A stretch of DNA of 54,988 bases from Niabella sp. (GTDB lineage Bacteria > Bacteroidota > Bacteroidia > Chitinophagales > Chitinophagaceae). The notes under the pieces were generated by a model, which saw only the letters and a program-made list of their open reading frames with translations, was not told the DNA's origin and made no database searches. Positions 1-54,115 of this stretch are shown here, in pieces; positions within the stretch are counted from its first letter, which is position 1; each line of letters starts with the position of its first letter. The DNA is taken from assembly GCA_017744795.1 (NCBI GenBank), contig JAGIAQ010000002.1, positions 64,471 through 119,458 of the forward strand, given 5' to 3'. Position numbers and translations under genes: made by a program.

Positions 1-804
1 GATCGTCGACTCCAGCGCACTGGCCGAGCCTGCCGTAAAACAGCCTTCGCCAAATGCCGCGGCATGAGAATCTCCGATCATACCGGTGATGGGCGCTTCC
101 CGTTTTAATAAACCATTTACTGTGGTGGTACCAAAATGTGCCGACGAGGGTTTTACCTCCGGTAACCGAACAGTGTTAAGTCCGAATACCTGCAACAGCT
201 CCTGATCCCATTGCAGTGAGTGGATATTAAAAAACAAGGTGCGTGATGCATTGGTATGGTCGGTAAAATAACTGTGCCCGTTGGTTAATTTATACAGCAA
301 CCAGGTATCAATGGTTCCAAAAAGAGCTTCTCCCTTTTGGACTTTTGATTTTATTGCTGCGTTCTGCTGCACCAGCCAGATCAACTTGGTGGCAGAGAAA
401 TAAGGGTCAATAACCAGGCCCGTTGCGGCACTGATCTGCCCGGATAATCCTTGTTGTTCTAATTGTTCACAAATAGCTACAGAGCGCTTGCACTGCCAGA
501 CCACAGCCGGACAAAGCGGCTCCCCGTATTTATCCCATAGCACAAAAGTTTCCCGCTGGTTGGAAATGCCGATAGTGCTGATAGCTTCTGTGGCCCAGCC
601 ATTATGCACAAAGGCATCCAGGCATTTCGCTACCGCAGCCAGCACGTTCTGATAAATTTCAATGGGGTCCTGTTCTACGAACCCCTCACCAAAATGATAG
701 GTATGCAGCGGTTCGGCGCCCCGGGCCAGCACCTGTCCCGAAGCATCCACTACCAATGCTTTGGTACCGCTTGTGCCCTGATCTATGGAAAGAATAAAAG
801 ACAT
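1..804 (-). CDS. FGGY-family carbohydrate kinase, 3' end cut by window (candidate D-apulose kinase)
   Basis: The ATG is at 804 and the frame stays open to base 1, giving 268 residues of a family that usually has about 490-510, so the C-terminal half lies outside the window. The N-terminal FGGY fold is clear: the phosphate-binding DQGTSGTKA at residues 8-16, GISNQRET at 79-86 (a glycerol-kinase-like signature), VVWQCKRS at 101-108, and GDSHAAAFG near 244-252. The family phosphorylates a polyol or ketose with ATP in the cytoplasm. It is the last visible gene of a run encoding an isomerase, a split transketolase and an RbsABC importer, which suits a ketose kinase. In the apiose transketolase pathway this step makes apulose 4-phosphate. 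Family assignment is firm; apulose as substrate is inferred from context. Xylulose, ribulose and glycerol remain possible. Confidence 0.88.
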   Translation of the reverse strand, partial: MSFILSIDQGTSGTKALVVDASGQVLARGAEPLHTYHFGEGFVEQDPIEIYQNVLAAVAKCLDAFVHNGWATEAISTIGISNQRETFVLWDKYGEPLCPAVVWQCKRSVAICEQLEQQGLSGQISAATGLVIDPYFSATKLIWLVQQNAAIKSKVQKGEALFGTIDTWLLYKLTNGHSYFTDHTNASRTLFFNIHSLQWDQELLQVFGLNTVRLPEVKPSSAHFGTTTVNGLLKREAPITGMIGDSHAAAFGEGCFTAGSASALESTI

Positions 805-872
805 TTATGATTTGTTAATTCTTTATGGTAAGTATATCCGCTGCCCCATGCACCAAAGCCGACGCTGTGCGA

Positions 873-889
873 TCCCGCCTTCTGCGGGA
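873..889. repeat. Intercistronic hairpin between permease and kinase genes
   Basis: TCCCGC (873-878) and GCGGGA (884-889) form a perfect 6-bp stem around a 5-base loop in the 134-bp gap between the permease stop and the kinase ATG. No T-run follows it on the minus strand, so it looks like an mRNA-stability or processing hairpin rather than a terminator. Confidence 0.4.
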
Positions 890-938
890 CAGGCTCCAGA
901 TTGACGCCACATGACCTGCAGCTGGGTCCATTATTTTA

Positions 939-1928
939 TTAATCATTTTTATTACCGATCTTATCAATAATAACCGCCAGCAGGATTACGCCGCCTTTTA
1001 CCACCTGCTGCCAGAAAGGAGAAACATTGAGCAGCACCAGGCCGTTGTTTAACACGCCAATGATGATAGCGCCCATCACTGTACCCCAAACTGTACCCCG
1101 GCCACCACTCAGTGAGGTGCCGCCGATAACGACCGCCGCAATAGCGTCCAGCTCGTAACTGACGCCAGCATTGGGTTGTGCAGAATCGAGCCGGGAGGTA
1201 ACAATGATACCGCCCACGGCAGCCATCATACCCGCCAGCGCATACACCATTATGACTACTTTAGGAATATTAATACCCGAAAATTTTGCCGCAGTTTCAT
1301 TGCCGCCGATGGCATAAATATAACGGCCCAGCCGGGTTTGCTTTGTTATAAAAGCCGCCAGCAATACCACCAGCAGCGCGATCCAGACCGGTACCGGGAT
1401 GCCCAAAAAGGACCCAGCCCCAATAAAAGCAAATTTTGCTCCCAGGTTGCTGATCGGCTGCCCTTTAGTGTACAACATGGTCAGCCCACGAGCAATGGTA
1501 AGCATTGCCAGCGTTGCCACAAAGGGAGGTACTTTAAATTTTGTGATCACAAAACCGTTGAACCAGCCCAGGACGCCACCTGCAATAATAGCCGCCAGCA
1601 ACACCCCAAAAATCGTAAACCCGATATAAAGATCAGCAGATGGAAATACCCATCCGTTTTTCAACAACCCGGCCGCGATCGCCCCGCAAAGCGCCAGTAC
1701 CGAGCCTACTGAAAGATCGATACCCGCTGTTAACACCACCAGGGTCATGCCTGTTGCTACACAAATATTTACCGCCGTTTGCCGAAGTATATTTAATCCG
1801 TTGTCTGTCGTAAAAAATTTATCGGTAAGCACGCTTAGCAATATACATAGCACCACCAGTGCTATCAGCGATTGCAGGCTTTTGATCCGCTGTTTATAGG
1901 TGATAGTAGTTTCCGACATTCCAGACAT
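939..1928 (-). CDS. Sugar ABC transporter permease, RbsC type
   Basis: This 329-residue inner-membrane protein has many hydrophobic segments, the first near residues 20-35, and the usual length of BPD_transp_2 permeases such as RbsC. Family landmarks are GIDLSVGSV at residues 69-77 and a GGTSLSGGRGTVWG motif near residue 275. It should form the membrane channel of an importer with the ATPase upstream and the binding protein further upstream. Its ATG overlaps the ATPase stop by one base (TAATG at 1930-1926), a sign of translational coupling. A second in-frame ATG lies three codons in. Context with a FucI-like isomerase, a split transketolase and an FGGY kinase suggests a pentose or branched pentose such as apiose as cargo. 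The family is firm, the substrate inferred. Confidence 0.93.
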   Translation of the reverse strand: MSGMSETTITYKQRIKSLQSLIALVVLCILLSVLTDKFFTTDNGLNILRQTAVNICVATGMTLVVLTAGIDLSVGSVLALCGAIAAGLLKNGWVFPSADLYIGFTIFGVLLAAIIAGGVLGWFNGFVITKFKVPPFVATLAMLTIARGLTMLYTKGQPISNLGAKFAFIGAGSFLGIPVPVWIALLVVLLAAFITKQTRLGRYIYAIGGNETAAKFSGINIPKVVIMVYALAGMMAAVGGIIVTSRLDSAQPNAGVSYELDAIAAVVIGGTSLSGGRGTVWGTVMGAIIIGVLNNGLVLLNVSPFWQQVVKGGVILLAVIIDKIGNKND

Positions 1929-3433
1929 TAATTTTTATGAATAGCCAACTGTAATAATCCGGACTCACTTGCTTCTGCGACGGGGAGGTTTCCGGTAAGC
2001 TCCCCTTCACACATGACCAATACGCGATGCGCGAGGGCGAGGATCTCCGGTATTTCCGAAGAAACAACGATAATGCCTACGCCCGTAGCAGCCAGCTCTT
2101 TTATCAATTTATATAACTCTGCTTTTGCTCCCACATCAATACCCCGTGTGGGTCCATCCAGCAGTAATACTTTTGGTTTTTTTGCAAGCCATTTCGCGAT
2201 AACGATTTTTTGCTGGTTGCCGCCGCTTAAGTGCCGCGACAAGGTTTCCTGCGACGCTGTTTTTATATTTAACTGTTTGATGTATTCCTTTACTAAGGAA
2301 CGCTCCTTTGCTTTACTGATCATCAGTCCATTTGCCTGCAGCTTTTCCAACACGGTGATGCTTGTATTGGGCCGAACGGCCAGGTCGAGGCAAAGCCCCT
2401 GCCGTTTACGGTCTTCCGGAACCAGCATAATGCCGGCAGCAACGGCGTCCGCAGGGGATTTGAGCCTTTGGGGCAAAGAATCGATGCGCACTGTGCCGGA
2501 GCTTAATTTAGGATGCAACCCAAAAAGAGTTTCCATCAGTTCGGTTCTTCCGGCGCCCATCAATCCATACAGGCCCAGGATCTCCCCTTTGTGTAAAGTA
2601 AAGCTGACATCTTTTACTAGCCAGGCCGACGACACAGACGGATTTTTAAGGCTGATATTTTTTAACTCCAGCAGCGGTTCAGCAGAATCAACAGCAGCAC
2701 TGTTCCGTTCAATGACAATTTTGCGTCCGGCCATCATTTCAATCAGCGTGTCCTGGGTCACTTCTTTCATATCTCCGGCAGCAACCGTGCTTCCGTCGCG
2801 CAAAACGATGTAGCGGTCGGCTTTTAAAAAGAGCTCTTTTAATTTATGAGAGATATAGACAATTGTTTTACCCGCCGCCTTCAATTCATCGATGATCTTA
2901 AACAGATGTTCCACTTCCCGGTCCGTAATTGCCGAAGTCGGTTCATCCATAATGATCAATTCCGCATTGGTATGCAGCGCCCGCGCGATCTCTACCAGCT
3001 GCTGCTGCCCCACTTTTAGTTTACCAACAGGTGTACCCGGCGGTATATTCAGTTGTACCCGCTGCAGCAGCTGCTTTGTTTCGCTTTTCATTTTCGGTTT
3101 ATCGAGCAATCCAAAGGGGTTGAGCAGCTCCCGTCCCAGGAAAATATTTTCGGCAATCGTCAGCTGCGGTACCAGGTTCAGCTCCTGGTGAATAATAACG
3201 ATCCCAGCCTTTTCCGCATCCTTGGTGGAAGAAAAACGAACGACATTCCCTTTATAGAGAAGTGAGCCTTCATATTCGGTGTATACCCCGGAGAAGATCT
3301 TCATTAGCGTAGATTTGCCCGCACCGTTCTCTCCAATAATTGCGTTCACCCTGCCGGGCAGCAGCTCCAGGTTCACCTTATCCAGTGCGATGATACCCGA
3401 AAATTTTTTGCTTATATTTTTAGCGACCAGCAT
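1928..3433 (-). CDS. Sugar ABC transporter ATP-binding protein, RbsA type (double NBD)
   Basis: This 501-residue cytoplasmic ATPase has two nucleotide-binding domains in tandem, the architecture and length of RbsA, XylG and MglA. The first Walker A is GENGAGKST at residues 34-42, and IIMDEPTSA near 160 is its Walker B region. The second half has a degenerate P-loop (GLMGAGRTE) and a canonical LSGGNQQK signature, as usual in this family where only one site is fully active. It powers import by the RbsC-like permease downstream. Its first 14 bases overlap the end of the DUF2291 gene and its stop overlaps the permease ATG, so the three genes are translationally packed. The sugar specificity cannot be read from the ATPase itself. 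Confidence 0.95.
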   Translation of the reverse strand: MLVAKNISKKFSGIIALDKVNLELLPGRVNAIIGENGAGKSTLMKIFSGVYTEYEGSLLYKGNVVRFSSTKDAEKAGIVIIHQELNLVPQLTIAENIFLGRELLNPFGLLDKPKMKSETKQLLQRVQLNIPPGTPVGKLKVGQQQLVEIARALHTNAELIIMDEPTSAITDREVEHLFKIIDELKAAGKTIVYISHKLKELFLKADRYIVLRDGSTVAAGDMKEVTQDTLIEMMAGRKIVIERNSAAVDSAEPLLELKNISLKNPSVSSAWLVKDVSFTLHKGEILGLYGLMGAGRTELMETLFGLHPKLSSGTVRIDSLPQRLKSPADAVAAGIMLVPEDRKRQGLCLDLAVRPNTSITVLEKLQANGLMISKAKERSLVKEYIKQLNIKTASQETLSRHLSGGNQQKIVIAKWLAKKPKVLLLDGPTRGIDVGAKAELYKLIKELAATGVGIIVVSSEIPEILALAHRVLVMCEGELTGNLPVAEASESGLLQLAIHKN

Positions 3434-4055
3434 CGGGGGATATTTTTATTCGTACTGGTATGATCTCAATAGTATCAAAATGAAGATGTTCTTTATTTAG
3501 CTCTATGGCCCCTGTAAATTCGAACCGGACACCCGGTTTCAACAGCGGCCGCCATTCGGATGCAATCTGACTGCGCACTCTTTCATTCATTGCCTCGGAG
3601 ATGCTGTTTAGATCACTGGTGTTCGGAAAAGCCGCCAGGTCTACCAACCGGGAAGCATCGCGAAGCGTATTCCCATAAACAAATTCTGTTTGAAGAGTGG
3701 CATTAAAGGGCTGTGCAGATTGTATGGTAATCAACAGATCATCTTCATGTACACTATCCACAATGGCAGTGCCTTTTACCAACACATACCGGTAATTGCC
3801 GATTGCCAGGGCGTTGGTGTACTGATCAAAGGCCTTGCTACCGCCTGTTTCCAGGGCATTTTTCAATATACTAACATCAACTGCGCTGTCCAGTTTAGCG
3901 GGCAGCCTGTCCTTCCATAATTGATCAACATAGTTGTTAACATCCAGTTTTGCTGAGGCTGAGCGAATGCTGCTTAGCTTTTTTATATAAACAGAATTGT
4001 ACAGTGCAGCGCCAAGCAGCACGATCCCGATTCCATATTTCAATAATTTTTTCAC
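3420..4055 (-). CDS. DUF2291 family protein within sugar ABC transporter operon
   Basis: This protein of 211 residues starts with GTG at 4055; no in-frame ATG lies upstream before the binding-protein gene ends. Residues 1-20 form a short basic then hydrophobic stretch (MKKLLKYGIGIVLLGAALYN) that is a signal anchor or signal peptide. The rest looks extracytoplasmic and soluble, and ends in a beta-rich segment. It resembles DUF2291 proteins, which are often encoded beside RbsABC-type importers. Their function is not known to me. The gene sits 24 bases after the binding-protein gene and overlaps the ATPase gene by 14 bases, so it is almost certainly co-translated with the transporter. A periplasmic accessory role in sugar capture or transporter assembly is plausible, not shown. 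Confidence 0.8.
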   Translation of the reverse strand: MKKLLKYGIGIVLLGAALYNSVYIKKLSSIRSASAKLDVNNYVDQLWKDRLPAKLDSAVDVSILKNALETGGSKAFDQYTNALAIGNYRYVLVKGTAIVDSVHEDDLLITIQSAQPFNATLQTEFVYGNTLRDASRLVDLAAFPNTSDLNSISEAMNERVRSQIASEWRPLLKPGVRFEFTGAIELNKEHLHFDTIEIIPVRIKISPDAGR

Positions 4056-4079
4056 TACCCCATTATTTAATTACGTTGT

Positions 4080-5027
4080 TCACTTCTTTCCGTAAGCCGC
4101 ATAATCACCAACATTCTTGTTGGTAACCAATTCTACCGCCACCGGCACTTTTTGCGGGAACGACCGTTTGCCTTTGATATATTCATCCGCAAAGACTGCC
4201 GCTGTTTGCGCCATTACTGCCGGAAACTGCATGCCCGTTGCCGCCACTTTGCCCTGTCTGATGGCATTCACCACATCATCGGCGCCATCAAATCCAAACA
4301 CTTTTACTTTGCCAGCCTTACCTGCTGTAAGCAGCGCCTGGTAAGCCCCCATGGCCATGGCATCGTTCCCGCAGAACACGCCGTCGATATCCGGATGCGC
4401 CTGAAGGATCGATTCCATTACTTCCATTGCTTTGTTCCGGTCAAAATCCGCGCTTTGCTGGGCCACCATTTTTAATCCCGGGTAATGATCCACCACGCTG
4501 TGAAATCCCTTAGAGCGGGCCCAGGTATTGTTATCGCCCACGAGGCCCAGCAATTCTACATAATTGCCGTTCTTGTGCAGGGTCTGCACAAAATATTTTC
4601 CAATAGCAACGGCGCCCGCATAACTGTCGGAAAGGATCTGGGAAGTAGCCGCCGCCAGGGAATTGATCTCGCGGTCCATGCAAAACACCGGGATACCCGC
4701 CGCTTTTGCCTTTTGCACATTGGCTACTGATCCGTCTGCGTCTGTAGGATTAAATAAAATAGCGTTATAGCCCTGCACGATGATATTATCGAAATGATCG
4801 CTTTCGAGCGCCGTATTATTCTGAGAATCGAACAGCTTCGTCTCGTAGCCCAGGGCACGTGCTTTTTCGGCCGCCTTTTCTCCCAGGAATACAAACCAGG
4901 GATTGTTCAGGGTTGAGATCACAATCGCAACTTTTTTTTGCCCGGACGAGTTGGCTTTTTGTCCGCATTGTTCAAATAGCAAAATAGTGCAGCAAATAAC
5001 CAACAGTTTGCAAATCGTTTGTTTCAT
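4080..5027 (-). CDS. Periplasmic sugar-binding lipoprotein, RbsB type
   Basis: This 315-residue type I periplasmic binding protein (Peripla_BP_4) is translated from the ATG at 5027. One codon earlier a TTG would also fit, but the ATG is the better start. A lipoprotein signal (LLFEQC, acceptor Cys21) means it is tethered to a membrane, which is usual for Bacteroidota. Family hallmarks are [16 protein letters not shown] at the start of the mature fold, FNPTDADG in the first lobe, MDREINS, and GFDGADD in the second lobe. It should deliver a monosaccharide to the RbsC/RbsA pair encoded just downstream. Ribose-, xylose- and apiose-binding proteins all belong to this family, so substrate is inferred from the neighbouring isomerase, kinase and transketolase. 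Confidence 0.92.
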
Positions 5028-5058
5028 CAATCTGCTATTTATTTTAATAATGCCTCTT

Positions 5059-6036
5059 TTAATTTTGTTCCTGTATTGTGGTCCCGATCAAGGTTTTGGC
5101 CGCTTCCGCGATACCCGCTTTGCTGATCCCATAGTGTGTGAAGATATCCCCCTGCGATCCGGTAACCGTATATTCATCCGGAATGCCCATTATCTTAAAC
5201 GGTTTGCCCATACCCTGCTGCAACAAATAAGCCGCGCAGGCTTCTCCCAATCCTCCATAAATGCTATGTTCTTCAACCGTAAGGATCGCCTGGCATTTAC
5301 GGGCAACGGCCGACAGCAATTCCGTATCCAGCGGTTTTATTGTGTGCATGCTGACTACCGTAGCTGCGATGTTCTCCTCTTGCAACAAAGCCGCCGCTTC
5401 CAATGCAGGCAGTACTGTTTCGCCGCAGGCGATGATGGCGATCGCGTCTCCTTCCGTAATGATACGTCCCTTACCAAATGCGAATATTTCATCCGCCGCT
5501 TCCTTTAAAAATGGCATGGGCTTCTTGCCAAACCGCAGGTATACCGGCAATTCTGTTTTTGCCGCCAGCTCAATAGCCTGTTCCGTTTCCCAGTTATCAG
5601 CCGGAGCCGCCACAATAATATTATTGATCGCCCTGAGCGCTGCAAAATCGTGCAGACTATGATGCGTGGTTCCCAAAGCGCCATAACTAACACCGGCACT
5701 GATGCCGATAACGTTTACAGGATTGTTGCTATAAGCCACATCATTTTTTATCTGCTCCAATGCCCGCGCCGTAAGAAAGCAGGCGGGTGAGGTAGCAAAT
5801 ACTTTTTTATTACAGGAAGCCAGTCCGGCGGCCACTCCCACCAGGTTTTGTTCTGCGATGCCCACTTCAACGATCTGTTGGGGAAAGCGTTTTCCGAAGG
5901 GCACCAGCTTACCGGAACCGCGGCTATCACTGGTAACCGCAATAATATTTCGATCGGTCTCTGCCAGCCGCTGCAAGGTTTCTGAATATACTTCCAGATT
6001 GGGCTTGTAGGATGTTGTATTAATTTGTTCTGCCAT
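5059..6036 (-). CDS. Transketolase C-terminal subunit (candidate AptB-type)
   Basis: This 325-residue protein carries only the pyrimidine-binding and C-terminal domains of transketolase, the usual form of the second half of a split enzyme. The catalytic glutamate of the TPP site is E62 in the motif VEVGIAEQN (residues 56-64). A transketolase_C domain with [12 protein letters not shown] follows near residue 255. It needs the N-terminal subunit encoded immediately upstream to bind TPP and transfer a two-carbon ketol unit. Split transketolases inside sugar operons are often dedicated to an unusual donor. With an FGGY kinase and a FucI-type isomerase in the same run, apulose 4-phosphate is the best guess, as in the apiose transketolase pathway. 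Housekeeping pentose-phosphate activity is the alternative. Confidence 0.93.
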
Positions 6037-6063
6037 TGTTTTATATATCTGTTTTCATTTTCG

Positions 6064-6126
6064 GCCGGGAAGGCGGTAAAGCGGTAATTGAAAAACAAAA
6101 TCTTCCCGACTTTTCGGCTTCCCGGC
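6064..6126. repeat. Imperfect inverted repeat between transketolase subunit genes (GCCGGGAAG family)
   Basis: GCCGGGAAG (6064-6072) and CTTCCCGGC (6118-6126) are perfect 9-bp arms about 45 bases apart in the 114-bp gap between the two transketolase subunits. A second element of the same design (GCCGGGAA at 35475-35482, TTCCCGGC at 35541-35548) lies before the GH2 gene. Both left arms are followed by CGG- and AAAGCGG-like words, so this is a dispersed repeat family rather than a gene-specific regulator. Confidence 0.6.
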
Positions 6127-6150
6127 GAACCAGGAAAGAAATTTTATATT

Positions 6151-6975
6151 CTATAAGGTCTTCAATACCTGATCCAGCTCTTTTATCGCCTGTTCATATT
6201 CCGCTTCTGATGGAACGCCATGATGCCATTTCAAAACATTTTCCATATAGCTTACCCCCTTGCCTTTTGTGGTATGGGCGATCAGCAGACTGGGTTTACC
6301 CGCTTCAAACGGATGCTGGTGCAGCACCTTTCTCAATGCTTCTACATCATTGCCATCTACTTCTTTTACCGCCCAGCCAAAGCTTTTCCATTTTTCATCC
6401 AGTGGGTCTGTATTGCATACATCCGCCGTAGGTGCGGTGATCTGCAAACTGTTTTTATCTATAATCGCACAAAGATTATCAAGCTTGTAATGAGCAGCGG
6501 TCAGCGCCGCTTCCCAATTGCTGCCTTCCGGCAGCTCCCCATCCCCCAGCAATGTGTAGACATTATAGTCTTTTCGATCCAGCTTTCCTGCAATAGCGGT
6601 GCCTACGGCGATGGGCAGGCCGTGCCCCAGCGCGCCTGTATTTTGTTCAACGCCGTTTACTTTGCGGGTGGGATGTCCGATATAATGCGATTGGTACTGA
6701 CATAAAGTATTCAGGTCTTCTTCCGGGAAAAATCCTTTATCAGCAAGCACCACAAACAATGCCTCAACGGTATGGCCTTTACTTTGAATATACCGATCCC
6801 GGTCCGGCGACGAAAAATTTTCGGGAAATACATTCATAATCCCGTTGTACAAAACATTCAGAATATCTGTACAGGATAAGCTTCCGCCGGTATGACCCGC
6901 TTTTGCCTTTACAATGTATTTAAGTATCCTTTTGCGATACTCTGCGGATTTTTGTTTTAATTCTTTTACTGTCAT
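6151..6975 (-). CDS. Transketolase N-terminal (TPP-binding) subunit (candidate AptA-type)
   Basis: This protein has 274 residues from the ATG at 6975. A TTG seven codons earlier, at 6996, is possible but lies inside a short TTCAAGGTT direct repeat, so I prefer the ATG. It is the N-terminal half of transketolase. In numbering from the ATG it has GHTGG near 27-31, SKGH near 65-68, the long HPTRKVNG...GHGLPIAVG loop near 101-125, and the TPP/metal motif GDGELPEGSNWEA near 144-156. It pairs with the C-terminal subunit encoded 114 bases downstream to make an active cytoplasmic enzyme that moves a ketol group between sugar phosphates. Position directly after a sugar isomerase points to a catabolic, substrate-specific role rather than the housekeeping enzyme. 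Confidence 0.92.
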   Translation of the reverse strand: MTVKELKQKSAEYRKRILKYIVKAKAGHTGGSLSCTDILNVLYNGIMNVFPENFSSPDRDRYIQSKGHTVEALFVVLADKGFFPEEDLNTLCQYQSHYIGHPTRKVNGVEQNTGALGHGLPIAVGTAIAGKLDRKDYNVYTLLGDGELPEGSNWEAALTAAHYKLDNLCAIIDKNSLQITAPTADVCNTDPLDEKWKSFGWAVKEVDGNDVEALRKVLHQHPFEAGKPSLLIAHTTKGKGVSYMENVLKWHHGVPSEAEYEQAIKELDQVLKTL

Positions 6976-6991
6976 CTTCAACAATTCAATG

Positions 6992-7014
6992 TTCAAGGTT
7001 TAATATTCAAGGTT
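6992..7014. repeat. Short TTCAAGGTT direct repeat at the transketolase gene start
   Basis: TTCAAGGTT occurs at 6992-7000 and again at 7006-7014, a 14-base period, in the 54-base gap between the isomerase stop and the transketolase ATG at 6975. It overlaps the alternative TTG start and is a reason to reject that start. Confidence 0.5.
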
Positions 7015-7029
7015 AGAGCGGGCTGCGTA

Positions 7030-8448
7030 TTATTGTTCATGCACATAAGTATCCCAGCCCAGGTAATTCTCCATAGCTTCTTTCAGGATGCCGGCCGTTT
7101 TGCTGGCATTCATCACCACATGATGTTCAAAACCGTTGCGGCAGATATAGTTCATCAATCCCTGTAAATTATTGATCTGCGCCACTGCCCGGTTACCAAA
7201 AGTTTTCAGCTCATCATCGGTCAGTGCGCCTTCACCCACATAAGCCTTGATCACGCCTTTGCAATCATCCGTGCTGATCCGCCCGTAAGTCAATGGCATC
7301 GCAGGTGTGCGGCCATCCAGCGCGCCGTAGGTATTCTCTGTACCAACGGTAGTGCCCAGGATTGGCGCTGTGCTGATGCTCATATCCGGCAGGAAGGATT
7401 TGGCCCAGTTGCCGCAATGGAACAACACACATTTGCTCTCATCATCCGCATAATTATTATTCCAGTCTACCAGGGCGCTTGGAGAACCGCTTGCCAATTG
7501 CAGCGCGTACATGCTCAGGGTTCCTGTAACGTCCACTTCGCAGGCGCTGGGCAGCATGTTCTCGCTCATCATGCTCATGCTGGTACAAACATTACACCCA
7601 TAATTTTGCTGTAAAGAAGTCCAGCATTGGATGGCTGTACAATCCAGCGCATTTTCCTGCATAAAGGCCCGCAGCACCACGTCCAGCTTTGCGATCTGAA
7701 CCAGTTTTTCGCCGGGCGTCTTTCCTACAGATGTGTAGGCATGGATCTGCTCCAGCTTATCTTTCACCGACTGATCGTTCGCCGTTAACTTATTGGCATT
7801 GCCGAGGATCTCTGAGAGATCTACGGTTGTAACGGAGATACCGTTGCGTTGTAAAATTTTTTCGCTGTACCGAACGGTATTAAAAGCTGTAGGCCTTGCG
7901 CCCACGGCTCCGATACGCACTTTTTTCAGCCCCCCTACTACTTTACATACGGATGTAAAATTCAAAAGGTCTTTTTTGAATATCGGATCATTTAAACGGC
8001 TTACATGTTTGGTGGTAAGGGTGTATTTGATCCCATATTGGTATAAATTATTGCACACAGATATTTTGCCGCACCAGGCATCCCGGCGGTTTACCACATC
8101 CAGTTTATTCAGATCATCCGGGTAAGCCTGCACCAGCACCGGAACGTTCAGGCCTGCCAACTTCAACGTTTCGGCCACGCCTTTTTCATCACCGAAATTG
8201 GGAAGCACCACTAATATGCCTCCTATTGCCTCCCGGTGTTGCCGAAACAGGGATGCACATTTTTGCGCATCTGCAAAGGTTTCCACACCGCCAAGTTTTG
8301 TGTCGGCATCCTCTAAAAAGATACCCCGGATATTCAGTTGTTTAAATAATTCAATCAGTTCAATGCGCGCTTCGGCCACCAGCTTATCGGGAAAGAAATC
8401 TCGATTACCGATAATGACGCCGAGCGTGGAAACAGGAGTATCTGCCAT
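7030..8448 (-). CDS. L-fucose/L-arabinose isomerase-superfamily aldose-ketose isomerase (candidate D-apiose isomerase)
   Basis: This 472-residue cytoplasmic protein belongs to the FucI/AraA-like superfamily but is shorter than E. coli FucI (about 590 residues). The acids that bind metal in this fold are recognisable: E304 in ACEVDVTG, D328 in LVDWNNN, and the histidine pair H442-H443 in GFEHHVVM. The N-terminal 170 residues form the Rossmann-like substrate lobe. Such enzymes convert an aldose to its ketose with a divalent metal. Here the gene leads the operon that continues with split transketolase, RbsABC and an FGGY kinase, so it is the predicted first enzyme. Apiose to apulose fits this gene set and the GH140 gene nearby; fucose, arabinose or another pentose remains possible. 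The ATG at 8448 is the natural start. Confidence 0.85.
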   Translation of the reverse strand: MADTPVSTLGVIIGNRDFFPDKLVAEARIELIELFKQLNIRGIFLEDADTKLGGVETFADAQKCASLFRQHREAIGGILVVLPNFGDEKGVAETLKLAGLNVPVLVQAYPDDLNKLDVVNRRDAWCGKISVCNNLYQYGIKYTLTTKHVSRLNDPIFKKDLLNFTSVCKVVGGLKKVRIGAVGARPTAFNTVRYSEKILQRNGISVTTVDLSEILGNANKLTANDQSVKDKLEQIHAYTSVGKTPGEKLVQIAKLDVVLRAFMQENALDCTAIQCWTSLQQNYGCNVCTSMSMMSENMLPSACEVDVTGTLSMYALQLASGSPSALVDWNNNYADDESKCVLFHCGNWAKSFLPDMSISTAPILGTTVGTENTYGALDGRTPAMPLTYGRISTDDCKGVIKAYVGEGALTDDELKTFGNRAVAQINNLQGLMNYICRNGFEHHVVMNASKTAGILKEAMENYLGWDTYVHEQ

Positions 8449-8483
8449 ATTATAATTTATTATACGCTACGATTCTTTACGCA

Positions 8484-8513
8484 GACCCGAAGGCACTAAA
8501 GCGCCGTCGGGTC
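8484..8513. promoter_or_regulatory. Leader hairpin about 36 bases upstream of the isomerase ATG
   Basis: GACCCGA at 8484-8490 pairs perfectly with TCGGGTC at 8507-8513 over a 16-base loop that can itself pair GGC with GCC. It would sit in the 5' leader of the isomerase mRNA. It could modulate translation or mRNA stability; no T-run makes it a terminator. Confidence 0.35.
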
Positions 8514-8805
8514 TATCATGACTGCAATACGATCTTATCTAAAAAAGCAATCGCGGCATTGTTATTTGTTTGACTTTTATATCCAAATAAAGTTATTCTA
8601 CTTATTACAGCATTGGTTGTACTATATAATTAAGCTGATGGAGTATATTACTTTTTTATGCAATCGTATGCGGGGTGGTACATGACTGATGACCGTGGTA
8701 AATACACAACCTGATTATCTTAAAACCTGTAACCATTTTTTAGGGCGATGCACCCGAAATATTATACATTCGACCCCTCCGGGGCCGCACTCTTTACACA
8801 TCCTC

Positions 8806-8824
8806 CCCCTGGCTTCGCCAGGGG
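8806..8824. repeat. Perfect 8-bp GC-rich hairpin with TTC loop
   Basis: CCCCTGGC, TTC and GCCAGGGG form a perfect 8-bp stem with a three-base loop. Two smaller hairpins with TCC loops flank it (8774-8784 and 8838-8848). All three lie 140-215 bases beyond the stop of the BNR-protein gene, so they may end or protect its transcript. The TTC-loop style recurs at 20001-20015. Confidence 0.5.
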
Positions 8825-8987
8825 CTATTCACCTTACGCCCTCCGGGCTACGCCGCCTTATTTCAATAAATATCTCCTGTTAGGATATCGCATATCCCGT
8901 GGTGAGAAAGTATCAGGTTATTTATTCATCTATAAGAAATGTGTCCGCACGATAGATGTATTATCGGGGCACTTTCACCCAATCGCT

Positions 8988-10826
8988 TTATTTTGTTTCA
9001 GCACTGAAATAATGCAGACTATAATTCGCTTCTTTAACTTTTTCCCCTGCATTGGGCAGATCATAATCCTGATCAGTGGGCGTGTCCGCATCAGGAAACC
9101 TGCGCACCCTTCCCGTCCGGAAAGTGACGTGATGAATTTTATGTACCGGGGCGAAGAAAATGCCGTTCACCGGTTTTGCCCCATTAATGGATACCGTGTA
9201 AAATCTTTTTGCTGCATCAACATCGATAACAAACTTATAGTTTTTTCCGGCCTCGTATTTGGTGAGCGACCGGTCGCGGTAGCCTGCTTTCGTGATGATT
9301 GATCCGGTTGAATCGAAAGAGATCCGCACGCAGGGCGTATTACGGGCATCCTGCAACTCAATATCCAGCCGGCCGTTTGCAGTCTGTCCCGGCGTTATAT
9401 CAAACGTTATTTTCATTGTTCCGGATTCGGGAACTACCCGCTCTGCTTTTGCAAAGTCAAACGGATCCTGATCACTCAAACTTAATACTTTTTTACCAGC
9501 AATGATTTTTATGGAAACCGGCGCCGAAAGCGGACTGTAGGTATTCCAGTTATTTAACTCAGCGCCTGTTTTCAATTGCGAAAAATCATCGTCCACGTTA
9601 CCCGACACTTTACTTCTGACAGGAATGGGAATGGTTGCCACCCAAATATCTTCCTTGTTCATACTGTAGCCTACCCAAACATTTCCATCGGGCCCTTTCC
9701 CATTAATTTCCTGGATGCCCCGTACATATTGCGGGCCATAGCTCTTATAAGCGCCCCCGTAGCGCAGGGAAGTAATTTCTCCGTTCACCAGCAGCAGGTT
9801 TTTATAGTGCAGACCATCATCACTTACTGACAGCGCCAACGGCCATCGATATTCCGAAGGATTATATACCGTGATGAACTTGCCGTCACTGGTTCGCTGG
9901 CCCCATATTTTTGCATTTGAATTTACAAAGCCCGGCGCCCTCAGTGGGTCATACTTCCAGGTTTTTCCATCGTCACCCGAAATACTGGTCAGCGCATTTT
10001 TCCAAAGCCCCACAACCCTCCCGTCCGGCAGATGGTAATAGGAGAATGCTTTCAACTCTTTCTTTATCGGTATCAATGGATCGTTCCTGTCAGCTTCCTC
10101 CACCATTTGCTGCATTAATAAAGGGGTAGCCAGTATTTCTTCGCAAGCAGCCTGAATGCCTTTATCTTTTGCGTTTTTATAAAACGGATAATTGGTATTC
10201 TGTTCACTGAACCGGTGATTGTATCTTAAAAAATAAATGGGGCCAAAACTCCCATCCTTCTTAACTTCCCGGATTACCCGACCTACACCATTGCCATCAT
10301 TGGGATCGTCTTTGGGACCCAGCGCAATACCGTAAAAGCCCAAAGCAAACAAGCGTTTTTCTTTGGAAACATAGAAACCGATCCGCTGGTGCATTACCGC
10401 GTAGCTGTTGTGCGTTATTTCTGTACGGCCTTCTTTTGTAAACCCATCCGGCAATTTATATTCCGGGAAAATAGCTACAGGATCCGACCATTTGTAACCA
10501 TCTTTGGATGTTACCAGAAAGGTAGCGCCGGGCGCCACATGCTCACCTACCGGATCACTCAGAAAATGAAGATAGAACGTATTGTTCCAGTATACCAGCA
10601 TGGGTTGATGGTTATAGGTCCAGTTCATTCCGCCGGCCCATTCCGGATGCTCCCGGTTGGCCCGGAATACCTGTATATTATGCACCCCAACGGCGGGTGT
10701 CAGCTGTCCATTGTGATAATCGACATTGGATAATGTTTCGCCGGTATAGCGAACCGTATCGTGCTGGGCGTGCAGGGCACACCCGACTAAAACCCAAAAT
10801 GCCGCTATATAATATTTCAATTGCAT
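8988..10826 (-). CDS. Secreted BNR/sialidase-like beta-propeller protein with C-terminal jelly-roll domain
   Basis: This protein has 612 residues with a Sec signal (cleavage probably after ALHA near residue 20). Residues about 45-410 form a BNR-type propeller with Asp-box-like turns: TSKDGYKW, a canonical SGDDGKTW, and SVSDDGLHY. A conserved NHQPMLVYWNN segment follows the N-terminal strand. Residues about 415-612 look like a concanavalin/LamG-type sandwich (DDFSQLKTG and TISFD-like strands). BNR_4-type folds include sialidase-like hydrolases and some uronate lyases such as ulvan lyases of PL24/PL25, so it could be an exo-hydrolase or a lyase. It follows GH140 and GH43 genes in the same operon and probably attacks the same side chain. 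I cannot assign a CAZy family. Confidence 0.7.
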   Translation of the reverse strand: MQLKYYIAAFWVLVGCALHAQHDTVRYTGETLSNVDYHNGQLTPAVGVHNIQVFRANREHPEWAGGMNWTYNHQPMLVYWNNTFYLHFLSDPVGEHVAPGATFLVTSKDGYKWSDPVAIFPEYKLPDGFTKEGRTEITHNSYAVMHQRIGFYVSKEKRLFALGFYGIALGPKDDPNDGNGVGRVIREVKKDGSFGPIYFLRYNHRFSEQNTNYPFYKNAKDKGIQAACEEILATPLLMQQMVEEADRNDPLIPIKKELKAFSYYHLPDGRVVGLWKNALTSISGDDGKTWKYDPLRAPGFVNSNAKIWGQRTSDGKFITVYNPSEYRWPLALSVSDDGLHYKNLLLVNGEITSLRYGGAYKSYGPQYVRGIQEINGKGPDGNVWVGYSMNKEDIWVATIPIPVRSKVSGNVDDDFSQLKTGAELNNWNTYSPLSAPVSIKIIAGKKVLSLSDQDPFDFAKAERVVPESGTMKITFDITPGQTANGRLDIELQDARNTPCVRISFDSTGSIITKAGYRDRSLTKYEAGKNYKFVIDVDAAKRFYTVSINGAKPVNGIFFAPVHKIHHVTFRTGRVRRFPDADTPTDQDYDLPNAGEKVKEANYSLHYFSAETK

Positions 10827-10870
10827 GCTGTTTTATTTACCCCGGATTGAAATCCGGGGCTATGTTAGCT

Positions 10871-11785
10871 TTATTTTTTAAATCGTTCGACAAATCGCCG
10901 CACTACTTTTTTCTTTACAGGAACGATCGTGCCGTGTTTATGTCCTTCCGGTACACTGATCCTGTTGTTCACATTTTCAAAATGAATAAAATCTTTGGTA
11001 CCGAAAGCCTCGTAGGTCTTTTTCCGGTACGCATCATAATAGATCAGCCATTGGTCTTTTGCCTTTACTGTTGTGGGACCTTCTGTATACTTTTCGGTAA
11101 AGGCTTTAGATACATCCCGCCAGGGGCCCAGGGGATTATTACTGAACGCCACTTTTATATCCAGCTCGTTCCGCGTATTGTCTTTTAAAACCAGTACATA
11201 ATCGTCTTTTGCCCTTTGCAGGATCGTTGCATCAATAACACTAAATTTCGGATCCAGGAATAGCCGCGTGGGCGTAAAGGTTTCAAAATCTTTTGTGGTG
11301 GTCACGTACATCCGGTGATTGTTACGCTCTTCTTCCAGGCCCCGTTCAAAGCGGCCGGGGATAGTGCTGGCCCATATGATAATATATTGTTTACGGGGTG
11401 CATCATAAAATAATTCGGGAGCCCAAACATTTACGGTGGTTGGCTCGTGCTCCATTACCGGTATAAACTTTTCTTTACTCCAGTGTATCAGATCTTTTGA
11501 AGACGCATACCCAAATCCCTTATCATCGCGCCAGCTGCTGGTCCACACCAAATGAAAGGTTCCATCCGGTCCCTGTACCATCGAGGGATCGCGCATTACC
11601 CTTTGATTCCCAACTTCCGGTTTCAGGAAAACCGTATCAAAATCTTTCCAGTGATATGCGTCATAACTATAGAGCATTCTTAAGCCAGCGTCAGCCGGTT
11701 CATGAAAGGAAGTGAACAGATAAGCCCTGTTGGAACAGGAGCTTATAATGATCATTAAAACAACTGCGCTTATAACCCTTTTCAA
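10871..11785 (-). CDS. GH43-type five-bladed propeller glycosidase, lipoprotein
   Basis: This 304-residue protein starts with TTG at 11785. No in-frame ATG precedes it, and this start gives a proper lipoprotein signal (KR then a hydrophobic stretch, lipobox IISSC, Cys17), whereas the internal ATG at codon 11 would lose the basic end. The three acids of clan GH-F are present: base D66 in MRDPS, pKa modulator D185 in VIDATI and acid E235 in TEGPTT. WAPELFYD near residue 121 is also typical. GH43 enzymes are mostly alpha-L-arabinofuranosidases or beta-xylosidases, and a surface-anchored arabinofuranosidase fits a pectin locus. It lies between the BNR and GH140 genes, all read together. Subfamily and linkage cannot be judged here. 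Confidence 0.83.
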   Translation of the reverse strand: MKRVISAVVLMIIISSCSNRAYLFTSFHEPADAGLRMLYSYDAYHWKDFDTVFLKPEVGNQRVMRDPSMVQGPDGTFHLVWTSSWRDDKGFGYASSKDLIHWSKEKFIPVMEHEPTTVNVWAPELFYDAPRKQYIIIWASTIPGRFERGLEEERNNHRMYVTTTKDFETFTPTRLFLDPKFSVIDATILQRAKDDYVLVLKDNTRNELDIKVAFSNNPLGPWRDVSKAFTEKYTEGPTTVKAKDQWLIYYDAYRKKTYEAFGTKDFIHFENVNNRISVPEGHKHGTIVPVKKKVVRRFVERFKK

Positions 11786-11852
11786 TTTGTCTTTTTTATT
11801 GAATTAAATTTATTGCGAGACTTCTCCGAACCACCCCAAAGGCCACTGTTTT

Positions 11853-11878
11853 TGCCACTGAAGCACAGAACCACAGAG
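11853..11878. repeat. GCCACTGAAGCACAGA-type dispersed repeat
   Basis: A 26-base word (TGCCACTGAAGCACAGAA then CCACAGAG) lies in the gap between the GH140 stop and the GH43 start. A close relative (TGCCACCAAGCACTGAACCA) sits at 19935-19960, and the arms of the hairpin at 23229-23272 use the same vocabulary. This is a dispersed intergenic family. Confidence 0.5.
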
Positions 11879-11918
11879 GGTTTCGCGAACCGCTTGCCAT
11901 CGGGCGACCAATCAACGA

Positions 11919-13307
11919 TTATTTTTCCAACACCAGAACCCGGTCTGTGCCGTCTGTGTCAGCCTTGGCTGCAGGCGGAGCAAATGACAATACACCCGTA
12001 GCTTTACTTAATTGCGCCGGTATATATTTCCCGCTTGCGGGGATATACCATTTTGCTTTTGCGGGTTTAAATCCGAGCTTCGATAAATCAACGCTAAAAC
12101 GTTTGCCTGTGTACGTATAAGCCATTGCATATCCTTTGCCTTTTGTAGCCAGTATGTAATCATATTTCGATCGGTTGTTGTTCACGACGAGCTCCTGTGC
12201 CGGCACGCGACTGAAATAATCATACGTTTGCACCAGCTCTTTTACAAACTGCATTTGAGTAGCGCCGGGTGCGGTCAGTTCCGCTTTCCAATTTTCCTGC
12301 ACACCATAACTGCCGTTCTTTTCGCCCGCTGCATAAAACTGCATCACTGCATTATCTCCATAGGTAAACCCGGCAGCACCGGCAAATACGCTCCAATAGG
12401 CATAGCGCCTTACATCTGCTGCAGTCCATTTGGGCTGCCGGCTGTCGTGCAGTCCCTGGGGGATATGCTCATAAGAAGGCTCTCCGTCCAGCACCGGTTT
12501 AACGGGTACCAGCGAGCGGTCATTTTTAATATACTTCCAGTTGTCTTCTCCGTAGTGATGCTTTTCTCCGGTAGTAGTATCCTGCGCATAATTGCGGTGC
12601 CCGCTTTGTACCATATTGAAATCGAGCCAGGTTTTATTATGAAACCAATCTGAAGAACTATAACGCCCACGTGGGTGAAAAGTAACCAGGTGTGCCGGGT
12701 CATATTTTTTTAATGTAGTACCGATGGTGTTCCACACTTCCATATGCTCATCTCCCGGGATATCGCCTCCATTCATCCAGATGATATTAGTATACTTTTT
12801 AAACCGGTTGGCCAGGAACCTTGCATAGACTGCCGCCTGTGCAGTGCTTACTTTTCCTTCTTTTACATTGCTGCCCCATACCGGAACCAATGCCATATAA
12901 ATCCCACGCTTCGCCGCTTCATTTATAATAAATTCCACATGATCCCAGAAATCGTATTGCGCGCTGTCTTTGAAGTCCGCTCCATTCGTTACTATCGGTT
13001 TTGAAACATCTCCATTCGCCACGGCAAAATCTCCATAAACATTTTTGGCCGCAACGGTGTGCAGTACCATCGCCTGGATCACGTTAAATCCCTGCTGTTG
13101 CCGCACATCCAGGTAATGTTGCGCTTCCTCGCGTGTGCACTTTAAAAATAACAACCACCCCGTATCACCTAACCAGAAAAACGGTTTACCATCCGCCGTT
13201 TGAAAATAATGATGATCAGCCGCCACCTGCAGCGACGGTAATTGTTGCGCCCGAAGTGTCACCGAAAAAAAACTGCACAAAAAAGCTATCGCAAGGGATC
13301 GTTTCAT
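11919..13307 (-). CDS. GH140-type apiosidase-like glycosidase (DUF4038 / PF13204)
   Basis: I start this at the ATG at 13307, because MKRSLAIAFLCSFFSVTLRA is a good Sec signal. An upstream start at 13394 would add 29 residues with no signal. That gives 462 residues. The apiosidase-like TIM barrel runs from about residue 30 to 365 with the hallmark LGDTGW at 46-51. The presumed catalytic acids are D182 in WMNGGDIPG and E276 in LDGEPSYE; in the characterised GH140 enzyme an Asp and a Glu in matching positions do catalysis. Residues about 370-462 form the small C-terminal beta domain usual in the family. GH140 removes D-apiose linked to galacturonic acid in rhamnogalacturonan II. It sits in the SusCD operon just before the candidate apiose operon. 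Family confidence is high, exact substrate less so. Confidence 0.85.
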   Translation of the reverse strand: MKRSLAIAFLCSFFSVTLRAQQLPSLQVAADHHYFQTADGKPFFWLGDTGWLLFLKCTREEAQHYLDVRQQQGFNVIQAMVLHTVAAKNVYGDFAVANGDVSKPIVTNGADFKDSAQYDFWDHVEFIINEAAKRGIYMALVPVWGSNVKEGKVSTAQAAVYARFLANRFKKYTNIIWMNGGDIPGDEHMEVWNTIGTTLKKYDPAHLVTFHPRGRYSSSDWFHNKTWLDFNMVQSGHRNYAQDTTTGEKHHYGEDNWKYIKNDRSLVPVKPVLDGEPSYEHIPQGLHDSRQPKWTAADVRRYAYWSVFAGAAGFTYGDNAVMQFYAAGEKNGSYGVQENWKAELTAPGATQMQFVKELVQTYDYFSRVPAQELVVNNNRSKYDYILATKGKGYAMAYTYTGKRFSVDLSKLGFKPAKAKWYIPASGKYIPAQLSKATGVLSFAPPAAKADTDGTDRVLVLEK

Positions 13308-13411
13308 ATTGTCTAAGTTAAACCGAACGCCAGGGAAAACAGTCGCTCCAATAATTATTTCCATTAACTTAACGGATTCCTCCATCTGTTCCACTCCCGG
13401 CTTTTTGGTAT

Positions 13412-15463
13412 CTAATATCCATTATTTCCAAACTGATCTGCGTTATTAATCTGGTTCAGGAAACCAAATGGAATGGGTCGATTGTAGTGCTTGGCAGGAA
13501 CAAAATTTGTAAAAGCCGTCCTGTTATAGTTTTGCAAGCGTGTCTCGAACGCTTTGTTCCGTTTTAAAAGCGCCCAACGATTATATTCACCGCACAATTC
13601 CCGGGCGTATTCATCAAAAACATCGTTCATCGAAGCCGTTGTCAATTGCATGCCGGTGCCAGCGTTGAAGTCGGCAATATTCCGGCAGGCGCGCTTGCGC
13701 AACACATTGAGATAGTTGGCCGCGGCAGCTCCGTCGTTATTTACATGAAGCGTTGCTTCCGCTGCAATTAAATATACTTCGGCCATCCGCATGATCATAA
13801 TGTTGCCAAGTTTTTGCTGAAAATTACCGCCCAGCCATCCGCCGTCGAAGTTGTGGTTAAACTTCATCATGGCAGGAAACAGGTTGGCCAAACTTGCCGA
13901 TGGGAACCCGTTTGTTGTTGTAACACTTTTATAAGTGCTTCCGGTGGGGTCTGCAGCCAGATCGAATAAATCATTAATATTCACGGTTACATACCTGCGG
14001 GTCTTTTTATCGGCGGCTGTCAGCGGATCTTTGCTTAAATAAGCAAAGAAGCGGTCTTCATCTGCTGCCAACGGGTAAGGGTTCACATTGGCATTGGCAA
14101 TAGTGGTCAGATCCGAAGTGGCGCCAGCATGCGCGCCTTTATTCCAGATCATCGGAATATACTGCCAGGTTGCGTTTTTAGATGCATTACGGGCATTTAC
14201 ATCGGCATAGGGATAAATTTTTTCTCCCACATGCGAAGCGTCGATACCATATTTGGTGCACATTGCCGCAGTAAGCGTAATGGTAGCGGCACTGTACGAT
14301 ACATTAGCGGGAGAAGGCACACCCGTGCCCAAACTTGCAATGGCCTGCACACCGGAATAGTTGGCAAATGCTGTGACAAAGGTATTTTCCCATCTTTTAT
14401 CATACTGGGCATTAAAGCAATCTACCAGGTATTTAGTAGGTGCAATGAATTGCTGGTTCAAACGCCCGTAGTACGCATTCGATGTATTGGAGTTTACGCT
14501 TCTTTTGAAGACGTCGGAAGTTCCGAAAGCATCATCCAGCTTGGGGTAATAGTGGAGGTATATATTAGGTTTAGAGTTCCCTGTAAAATAATCATACGAA
14601 GCGTCGTAAGGATCCAGGCCATAAGCAGTAAACAAAGCCTCCGCGTTCTTCCGGTTATTCGCCGCGGCGAACACCATCGAAAAATCATTGTACAGCGTGG
14701 CATTCAATGCACCGCTATTGTTGATCAGACTGTCTGCCACTTCTTTTGCACGCAGCCAGTACGATTTCCCATTTTCACTTAACCCCTCTCCTGCTCCCTG
14801 CGCGTATACGCGGGCCAAAAGTCCAAACGCCGCTTTCTTTGTAACCCGCGCTGCATTTCCGCCATAAGGCGTTACCGGCAGGTTTTGATAAGCAGTTTGT
14901 AAATCCGCAACGATCTGGGCATAAATTTCAGCAATATCATTGCGCTTGGGGTTTGGGTCTTTAACAGGACTATCGGTTAACACCAAAGGAATCTTACCAA
15001 ATTGAGCTACCAGTACAGAATAGTAGTACGCTCTTAAAAGCCGCGCCTCTGCGGTCAGCACTGTAATATCAGCGGCATTCCCATCTACTAATTGCGCTGC
15101 AAGCTGAATTGTTTTATTACAGTCTTTTATGGAACCCCAGGCATAATCCCATACATTTTTTACAATACCGGAATTGGTTGTAAATTCCTCATAAGCCATT
15201 ACATCTTTGTATTGATTATGGTTGCCGTAGGGGAAGGTCCACAGATCTGTGCCCACTTCAGAAACGATCCCGTAAGGCATCCCGATAAGCGATCCCCAAA
15301 GCCCGGTATAACAATTGGACTGATAGGCCTTCCAGCCATCAAAGTTGCGCAATACATTTTCTTCCGATAAAGCCGAAGGATTGTACTCTTTTAAACTGCA
15401 GGATGTTGCGAATATTGCGATAAGCAATGCCCAGCCTATTCTTTTTATATTATTAGTTTTCAT
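13412..15463 (-). CDS. SusD/RagB family outer-membrane glycan-binding lipoprotein (first SusCD pair)
   Basis: This 683-residue protein starts at the ATG at 15463; a TTG two codons earlier is possible but unnecessary. It has a lipoprotein signal (basic KRIGW, hydrophobic core, FATSCSLKEY with the acceptor Cys). SusD traits are the N-terminal SEENVLRNFDGW segment, helical TPR-like stretches such as LLRAYYYSVLVAQFGKIP near residue 145, and the C-terminal RMAEVYLIAAEA plus EYARELCGEYNRW block. It is longer than the usual 500-600 residues. It captures glycan fragments at the cell surface and closes the SusC barrel. It follows SusC by 18 bases. The genes after it encode GH140, GH43 and a BNR protein, so the ligand is probably an apiose- or arabinose-bearing pectin fragment. 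Confidence 0.95.
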   Translation of the reverse strand: MKTNNIKRIGWALLIAIFATSCSLKEYNPSALSEENVLRNFDGWKAYQSNCYTGLWGSLIGMPYGIVSEVGTDLWTFPYGNHNQYKDVMAYEEFTTNSGIVKNVWDYAWGSIKDCNKTIQLAAQLVDGNAADITVLTAEARLLRAYYYSVLVAQFGKIPLVLTDSPVKDPNPKRNDIAEIYAQIVADLQTAYQNLPVTPYGGNAARVTKKAAFGLLARVYAQGAGEGLSENGKSYWLRAKEVADSLINNSGALNATLYNDFSMVFAAANNRKNAEALFTAYGLDPYDASYDYFTGNSKPNIYLHYYPKLDDAFGTSDVFKRSVNSNTSNAYYGRLNQQFIAPTKYLVDCFNAQYDKRWENTFVTAFANYSGVQAIASLGTGVPSPANVSYSAATITLTAAMCTKYGIDASHVGEKIYPYADVNARNASKNATWQYIPMIWNKGAHAGATSDLTTIANANVNPYPLAADEDRFFAYLSKDPLTAADKKTRRYVTVNINDLFDLAADPTGSTYKSVTTTNGFPSASLANLFPAMMKFNHNFDGGWLGGNFQQKLGNIMIMRMAEVYLIAAEATLHVNNDGAAAANYLNVLRKRACRNIADFNAGTGMQLTTASMNDVFDEYARELCGEYNRWALLKRNKAFETRLQNYNRTAFTNFVPAKHYNRPIPFGFLNQINNADQFGNNGY

Positions 15464-15487
15464 TTGCAAGTTTTATGAATTCAATGA

Positions 15488-19818: not shown

Positions 19819-19837
19819 CACAAAGCATTCGTTAAAA

Positions 19838-52221: not shown

Positions 52222-52223
52222 AA

Positions 52224-53252: not shown

Positions 53253-53254
53253 GC

Positions 53255-54097: not shown

Positions 54098-54115
54098 AAT
54101 TATTTTTTTTATCGC

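Follow-up and report, generated by a model that had tools for sequence, protein, structure and literature searches.

The window analysed here, a 54,988-nt stretch of Niabella sp. DNA (assembly GCA_017744795.1, contig JAGIAQ010000002.1, positions 64,471-119,458), carries a pectin locus, likely directed at rhamnogalacturonan II (RG-II), in which a predicted apiosidase of glycoside hydrolase (GH) family 140 lies beside an importer, a sugar isomerase, a kinase and a split transketolase; together these genes probably serve the import and catabolism of D-apiose, a rare branched sugar that is a constituent of RG-II and of many plant glycosides. Genes were assigned by profile searches (Pfam, NCBIfam), which found each gene named in the initial annotation where it had been claimed: GH140, the SusCD pair, the FucI-type isomerase, the N- and C-terminal transketolase halves (TKn and TKc), RbsABC, DUF2291 and the FGGY kinase (Table 1). 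All genes of the cassette are on the minus strand, and the GH140 operon is indeed adjacent to the catabolic run, although a single transcript is not certain here in view of the 539-bp gap between the GH143-like gene and FucI.

We infer every substrate and every reaction at this locus from what can be observed in it, i.e. gene content and order, family membership, conserved residues, the clade of the transketolase and the recurrence of the cassette. In the apiose transketolase route, apiose is isomerised, phosphorylated and then cleaved by a dedicated transketolase. Here apiose would be freed in the periplasm by GH140 together with the GH43-like protein and the rhamnosidase, and taken up by RbsB, DUF2291, RbsA and RbsC. 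The isomerase would convert apiose to apulose, the FGGY kinase would convert apulose to apulose 4-phosphate, and the transketolase would transfer two carbons to glyceraldehyde 3-phosphate, with xylulose 5-phosphate and dihydroxyacetone phosphate as the products. This route, proposed in the initial annotation, is supported in part: it gains from the recurrence of the cassette, from the transketolase trees and from two Bacillota in which a PF13204 gene (the Pfam family of GH140) stands beside FucI-TKn-TKc-FGGY; the kinase and the binding protein do not speak clearly for it, and the isomerase may be of one family with ApsI, the D-apiose isomerase of the known pathway.

Compared with the apiose cluster of E. 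coli SE15, the transketolase halves of the window show 50% identity for N and 43% for C. A tree built from 29 concatenated transketolases unites the window pair with 13 Bacteroidota, Listeria, Monoglobus, enterics and Agrobacterium in a single clade (support 100), outside which fall seven other split transketolases and TktA; within the tree, the enterics are joined to Bacteroidota and Bacillota alone with support 80. The other N half of the parent genome (39% identical) is placed outside the clade in a second tree, where the support of the clade is 95. A WHHxVP motif is present in 21/21 members of the clade and in 0/9 other proteins. Judged by its sequence, the split transketolase of the window can be assigned to the lineage of AptAB, the apulose-4-phosphate transketolase.

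The isomerase is modelled with the AraA/FucI fold and is a candidate D-apiose isomerase. Its identity with the FucI-like protein encoded in enteric apiose-type clusters is 55–56%, and its residues E304, D328, H344, H442 and H443 are invariant (83/83). The parent genome contains one match to it in a protein search, and two more PF02952 genes of other types. Isomerases of the FucI/AraA fold act on many aldoses, and the operon might instead serve another plant sugar of the locus (e.g. D-arabinose, L-galactose or a methylated sugar), its proximity to GH140 reflecting shared regulation only. Relatives of the isomerase at 48–52% identity, which sit elsewhere without the transketolase pair, are in line with such a sugar; we nevertheless regard it as very unlikely, given the dedicated transketolase pair of the apiose clade beside isomerase and kinase, and the repeated company of PF13204 genes in two phyla. 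The sole NCBIfam match of the isomerase is the sulfoquinovose isomerase SftI, which we rejected as an assignment (87.9 bits, far under the 700-bit cut-off). A sulfoquinovose transketolase pathway, for which this match would speak, is barely credible: the genes scanned included none recognisable as a sulfoquinovosidase or sulfonate gene, and that pathway is not known to need an FGGY kinase.

A scan of genome contigs confirmed at least 578 relatives of the isomerase, and we examined the loci of the best 80 of these 578 (76–89% identical), identifying neighbours by tblastn; some loci end at contig ends. TKn is present in 78 of the 80 loci, TKc in 77, RbsB in 70, DUF2291 in 67, RbsA in 66, RbsC in 61 and FGGY in 65. 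The order GH140-GH43-GH143-FucI-TKn-TKc, with GH140 at 50% identity or more and with a GH43-like gene and GH143 immediately upstream, recurs in 8/80 loci, two from Niabella and six from metagenome-assembled genomes named Ferruginibacter, Chitinophagaceae or Chitinophagales; these carriers are related and hence do not amount to eight independent events. In seven of the eight cassettes FucI starts 1–10 bp past the stop of GH143, and in the eighth (L008, from the cultured Niabella hibiscisoli), whose assembly has several broken genes, FucI is one of the frames interrupted. Two of the eight (L014 and L018) have no importer genes between TKc and FGGY and keep FucI-TKn-TKc-FGGY. In the parent genome, which is 4.57 Mb long and about 90% complete, PF13204 has a single match, and random placement would bring GH140 and the isomerase within 5 kb of each other with a probability of ~0.002. 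PF13204-like matches at 28–29% in L075 and L082 were not counted as GH140. DUF5060 proteins occur in 7/80 loci, in four of them within the operon span; among four such proteins scanned, PF13204 scores over the cut-off in L011, L019 and L083, and L007 gave no match to it at E 0.001. By clustering, a DeoR-family regulator accompanies 54/80 FucI loci, mostly just upstream of FucI (e.g. L009:419-1183); no DeoR gene was found in the window or in L004, the corresponding locus of the parent contig, and no DeoR remnant in the 539-bp gap.

An independent linkage is seen in Bacillota. A Listeria locus (L095:5296-13086) contains in a row genes for a LacI regulator, FucI-TKn-TKc-FGGY, a phosphotransferase system (PTS) component and a PF13204 protein, and is a candidate apioside operon; the order in Monoglobus pectinilyticus is FucI-TKn-TKc-FGGY-DUF5060/PF13204/DUF5605. 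Both share with the window the order of catabolic genes, a PF13204 gene and transketolases of the same clade; unlike the window, their FucI proteins are only 25–26% identical to its isomerase, and the importer of Listeria is a PTS. The Listeria PF13204 protein is 27% identical to the window GH140, whereas BLAST gave no significant match between that GH140 and the Monoglobus protein. The GGD/DGEP pair of the GH140 enzyme BT1012 from Bacteroides thetaiotaomicron was looked for by a simple search and found in neither of the two. From their sequences we would therefore call these proteins apiosidase-fold, not proven apiosidases. A further locus, from Subdoligranulum (L108), with FucI-like and FGGY matches and no match by the window transketolase halves, was set aside.

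The GH140 gene itself is assigned by its PF13204 score (378.6 bits), and its residues D211 and E305 align with the catalytic pair of BT1012. Translation from position 13307 gives the protein a signal-peptide-like N terminus. BT1012 is a beta-apiosidase acting on RG-II, according to PMC7939467, and by sequence the window protein is a candidate for the same activity.

Several observations weigh against apiose as the substrate. The window kinase is 40% identical to E. coli GlpK and 35–36% identical to the kinases of enteric apiose clusters, and in the kinase tree it is not set apart from GlpK (supports 22–53). We attempted to use this tree as proof of descent from AplK, the kinase of the known pathway, and it failed, its branches not being resolved from glycerol kinase. 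The window kinase scores 537.7 bits with PRK00047 (cut-off 498) and 530.5 bits with TIGR01311 (cut-off 590), and the apiose-cluster kinase likewise scores best on glycerol kinase profiles. The window has RbsABC and DUF2291 as do E. coli SE15 and R. etli, but its RbsB, with ribose-like site residues, is nearest to the ribose-binding protein of T. maritima and differs at several site positions from apiose-linked proteins of R. etli and enterics; the R. etli member of the RbsB family is encoded in a cluster for apionate. In the transketolase, columns specific to enterics gave a weak signal only (26/114 in the window versus 0–21 of 114–135 in proteins outside the clade), which is why we rely on the trees. 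In a sample of 296 Bacteroidota genomes (thresholds of 48% for the isomerase and 45% for GH140 were set after seeing the matches, and p values ignore kinship) an isomerase match was found in 27 genomes, in 13 of them at 48% or more, and a GH140 match in 32, in 18 of them at 45% or more. Both genes occur in four genomes including that of the window, and in the other three they are on different contigs or ~650 kb apart; their co-occurrence has a Fisher p of 0.025 with the own genome excluded. The isomerase is missing from 14 of the 17 other GH140 genomes, which must handle apiose by some other means or leave it unused. Finally, no C half, DUF2291 or RbsB adjoins 8 of the 13 isomerases, those at 48–52% identity (L137-L144); a sodium symporter match lies near seven of the eight and a distant (33%) N-half match ~4–5 kb from two. 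Without an adjacent AptAB-like pair or importer in these loci, membership in the isomerase family alone does not fix the substrate.

An alternative reading is a D-ribose (or D-arabinose) operon that stands beside RG-II genes, in which RbsABC would import ribose, the isomerase would form ribulose and the kinase ribulose 5-phosphate, with the transketolase aiding the pentose phosphate pathway. RbsB is similar to ribose-binding proteins and retains their ribose-contact residues; the site residues are not decisive between apiose and ribose. Profile scans of the operon detected no ribokinase, RbsD or epimerase among its genes. A full-scoring ribokinase is encoded on another contig of the parent genome, beside a GH127 gene and a sugar-type permease with a match to PF07168 and a weaker one to PF06800; a separate glycerol kinase is found elsewhere in the genome, so that neither ribose nor glycerol use requires a gene of the cassette. 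In 7/8 cassettes GH143 and GH140 border directly on the operon although RG-II is not known to contain ribose, and the grouping of the transketolase with that of the E. coli apiose cluster also speaks against ribose. A T. maritima operon of similar make-up is induced by ribose and xylose (PMC3750489), which counts for ribose and against apiose. We consider the ribose alternative unlikely.

Ribose is classically released by nucleoside hydrolases, and genes for exported proteins resembling these were found by clustering in 34/80 loci, in 23 of them within the operon span; examples of such loci are L011, L027 (Adhaeribacter), L030, L040 (Runella) and L049. They fall into overlapping types (29 PF07632, 10 PF07632 with DUF5060, and 6 IU_nuc_hydro; one representative of each was scanned), and none is present in the 8 GH140 loci, of which L024 and L025 are short. 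In the genome sample, four other genomes have the isomerase at 72–78% identity; three of them show the operon, and the fourth (G119) shows FucI-TKn followed by the contig end. PF07632 is found in 4/4 of these versus 22/291 others (p 5e-5), GH140 in 2/4 (p 0.018), so that the operon has a stronger association with PF07632 than with GH140, which counts against apiose and for ribose. The PF07632 gene is beside the operon in one genome (G158), outside the fetched stretch in the other three, and on another contig in the genome of the window. The starts of the nucleoside-hydrolase-like proteins resemble signal peptides, and motifs like DIENEPDD, DIEADPDD, DPELDD or DGEIDD are seen in all PF07632 members except three whose frames are broken or partial. 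The model of a PF07632 protein is middling (predicted local distance difference test score 75) and its nearest structure, 2yhg from S. degradans, has no assigned function, hence no substrate follows from it. Because PF07632 shares DUF5060 with PF13204 proteins and occupies the place of GH140, it may release the same furanose. We put forward, tentatively and with more doubt than confidence, that isomerase, transketolase and kinase form a widespread apiose module of Bacteroidota with interchangeable releasing enzymes: GH140 with its RG-II partners in the Niabella lineage, DUF5060/PF13204 proteins in some other lineages, and in many more the exported PF07632 proteins, as a second and so far unrecognised family of apiofuranosidases. 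Release of ribose by PF07632 is the sober alternative. PF07632 may be regarded as a candidate family of glycosidases that still lacks an assigned substrate.

Table 1. Predicted features of the cassette and its surroundings (positions in the window)
Feature	Position	Strand	Basis and remarks
FGGY kinase, glycerol-kinase-like, N-terminal part	1..804	-	PF00370, PF02782; gene cut by window edge; whole gene L004:15761-17275, 504 aa
RbsC-type ABC permease	939..1928	-	PF02653; top NCBIfam match ribose permease, under cut-off
RbsA-type ABC ATPase	1928..3433	-	PF00005, two stretches
DUF2291 predicted periplasmic lipoprotein	3420..4055	-	PF10054
RbsB-type sugar-binding protein, lipoprotein-like N terminus	4080..5030	-	PF13407; nearest solved chain 2fn8 (T. 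maritima ribose-binding protein)
Transketolase C half (TKc)	5059..6036	-	PF02779, PF02780; in clade with E. coli apiose-cluster enzyme
Transketolase N half (TKn)	6151..6996	-	PF00456; apiose-cluster clade; WHHxVP motif
FucI-like sugar isomerase, candidate D-apiose isomerase	7030..8448	-	PF02952; modelled arabinose/fucose isomerase fold
Gap between GH143 and FucI, 539 bp	8449..8987	.	No recognised gene; G+C-rich inverted repeat
GH143-like protein (BT1020 N-terminal part)	8988..10826	-	PF24067; 5mqr residues 24-604
GH43-like protein	10871..11785	-	PF04616, weak: 35.4 bits, cut-off 32.2
GH140 candidate apiosidase	11919..13394, probable start 13307	-	PF13204, 378.6 bits; BT1012 3kzs/5msy; 8t9w "Apiosidase"
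SusD-like protein	13412..15469	-	PF14322, PF07980
SusC-like TonB-dependent receptor	15488..18676	-	PF07715, PF13715
LacI-family regulator, candidate regulator of the locus	18796..19821	-	PF00356, PF13377
GH78-like rhamnosidase that may take rhamnose off apiose	36665..39352	-	PF17389

The remainder of the window contains a second SusCD pair, GH2, GH78, GH95, GH28 and further genes, and its gene content fits, as expected, an RG-II locus. Beyond the window edge, the parent contig continues with the complete FGGY kinase, a GH142-like gene, an esterase, GH2, GH78 and others. Two proteins of ~545 aa (23296-24933 and 25278-26912), without a Pfam match at E 0.001, are encoded beside a DUF6298 protein, and their relatives recur next to the cassette in several loci. 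Consecutive genes for an oxidoreductase, a RhaT-like transporter, an amidohydrolase and a CoA-transferase III occupy 51178-54985; relatives of the RhaT-like and amidohydrolase genes also adjoin the FucI operon in L010 and L017.

The fate of the apiose released by Bacteroidota is little described, and a locus that would couple release, import and breakdown makes it testable in one strain; FucI-TKn-TKc-FGGY could serve as a marker for apiose use across phyla. The initial annotation had considered a complete route in a Bacteroidota pectin locus to be new. A search of the open-access literature, which is no proof of absence, returned nothing on this cassette, or on PF07632 in connection with apiose; use of apiose in Bacteroides has already been reported, at second hand, and the window locus would be a variant on a known route.

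That route, the D-apiose transketolase pathway, consists of ApsI, AplK and AptAB (MetaCyc PWY-8089; PMC13001218, citing Carter et al. 2018). E. coli SE15 has the reference copy of the cluster, and according to PMC13001218 apiose supported growth of its carriers, three E. coli strains and one of E. fergusonii, and not of K-12. Like the known pathway, the window has an FGGY kinase, a split transketolase of one clade, and RbsABC with DUF2291. The SE15 cluster contains in addition a regulator, and differs from the window in having two short-chain dehydrogenase/reductase (SDR) genes and no isomerase; in records of Klebsiella, Rahnella and Sodalis, the SE15 set has a FucI-like protein in place of the SDR pair, with transketolase halves 73–79% and kinases 70–72% identical to those of E. 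coli. In Niabella, by contrast, the set forms part of a pectin locus with GH140, GH143, GH142 and SusCD. The RbsR ribose operon of T. maritima, compared (its binding protein apart) by its description in PMC3750489, likewise combines RbsABC and a transketolase, with two predicted D-arabinose enzymes and, unlike the Niabella operon, a ribokinase. The T. maritima genome matches both the PF02952 and PF13204 profiles. T. maritima may also use apiose, and this sugar is worth considering for its "ribose" operon. With B. thetaiotaomicron, finally, the Niabella locus shares GH140 (BT1012) and both halves of BT1020, GH143 and GH142. The GH142-like protein past the kinase matches the C-terminal half of BT1020 (5mqr residues 616-1098), so that what is a single protein in B. 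thetaiotaomicron is in Niabella split into two genes, which flank the run from isomerase to kinase.

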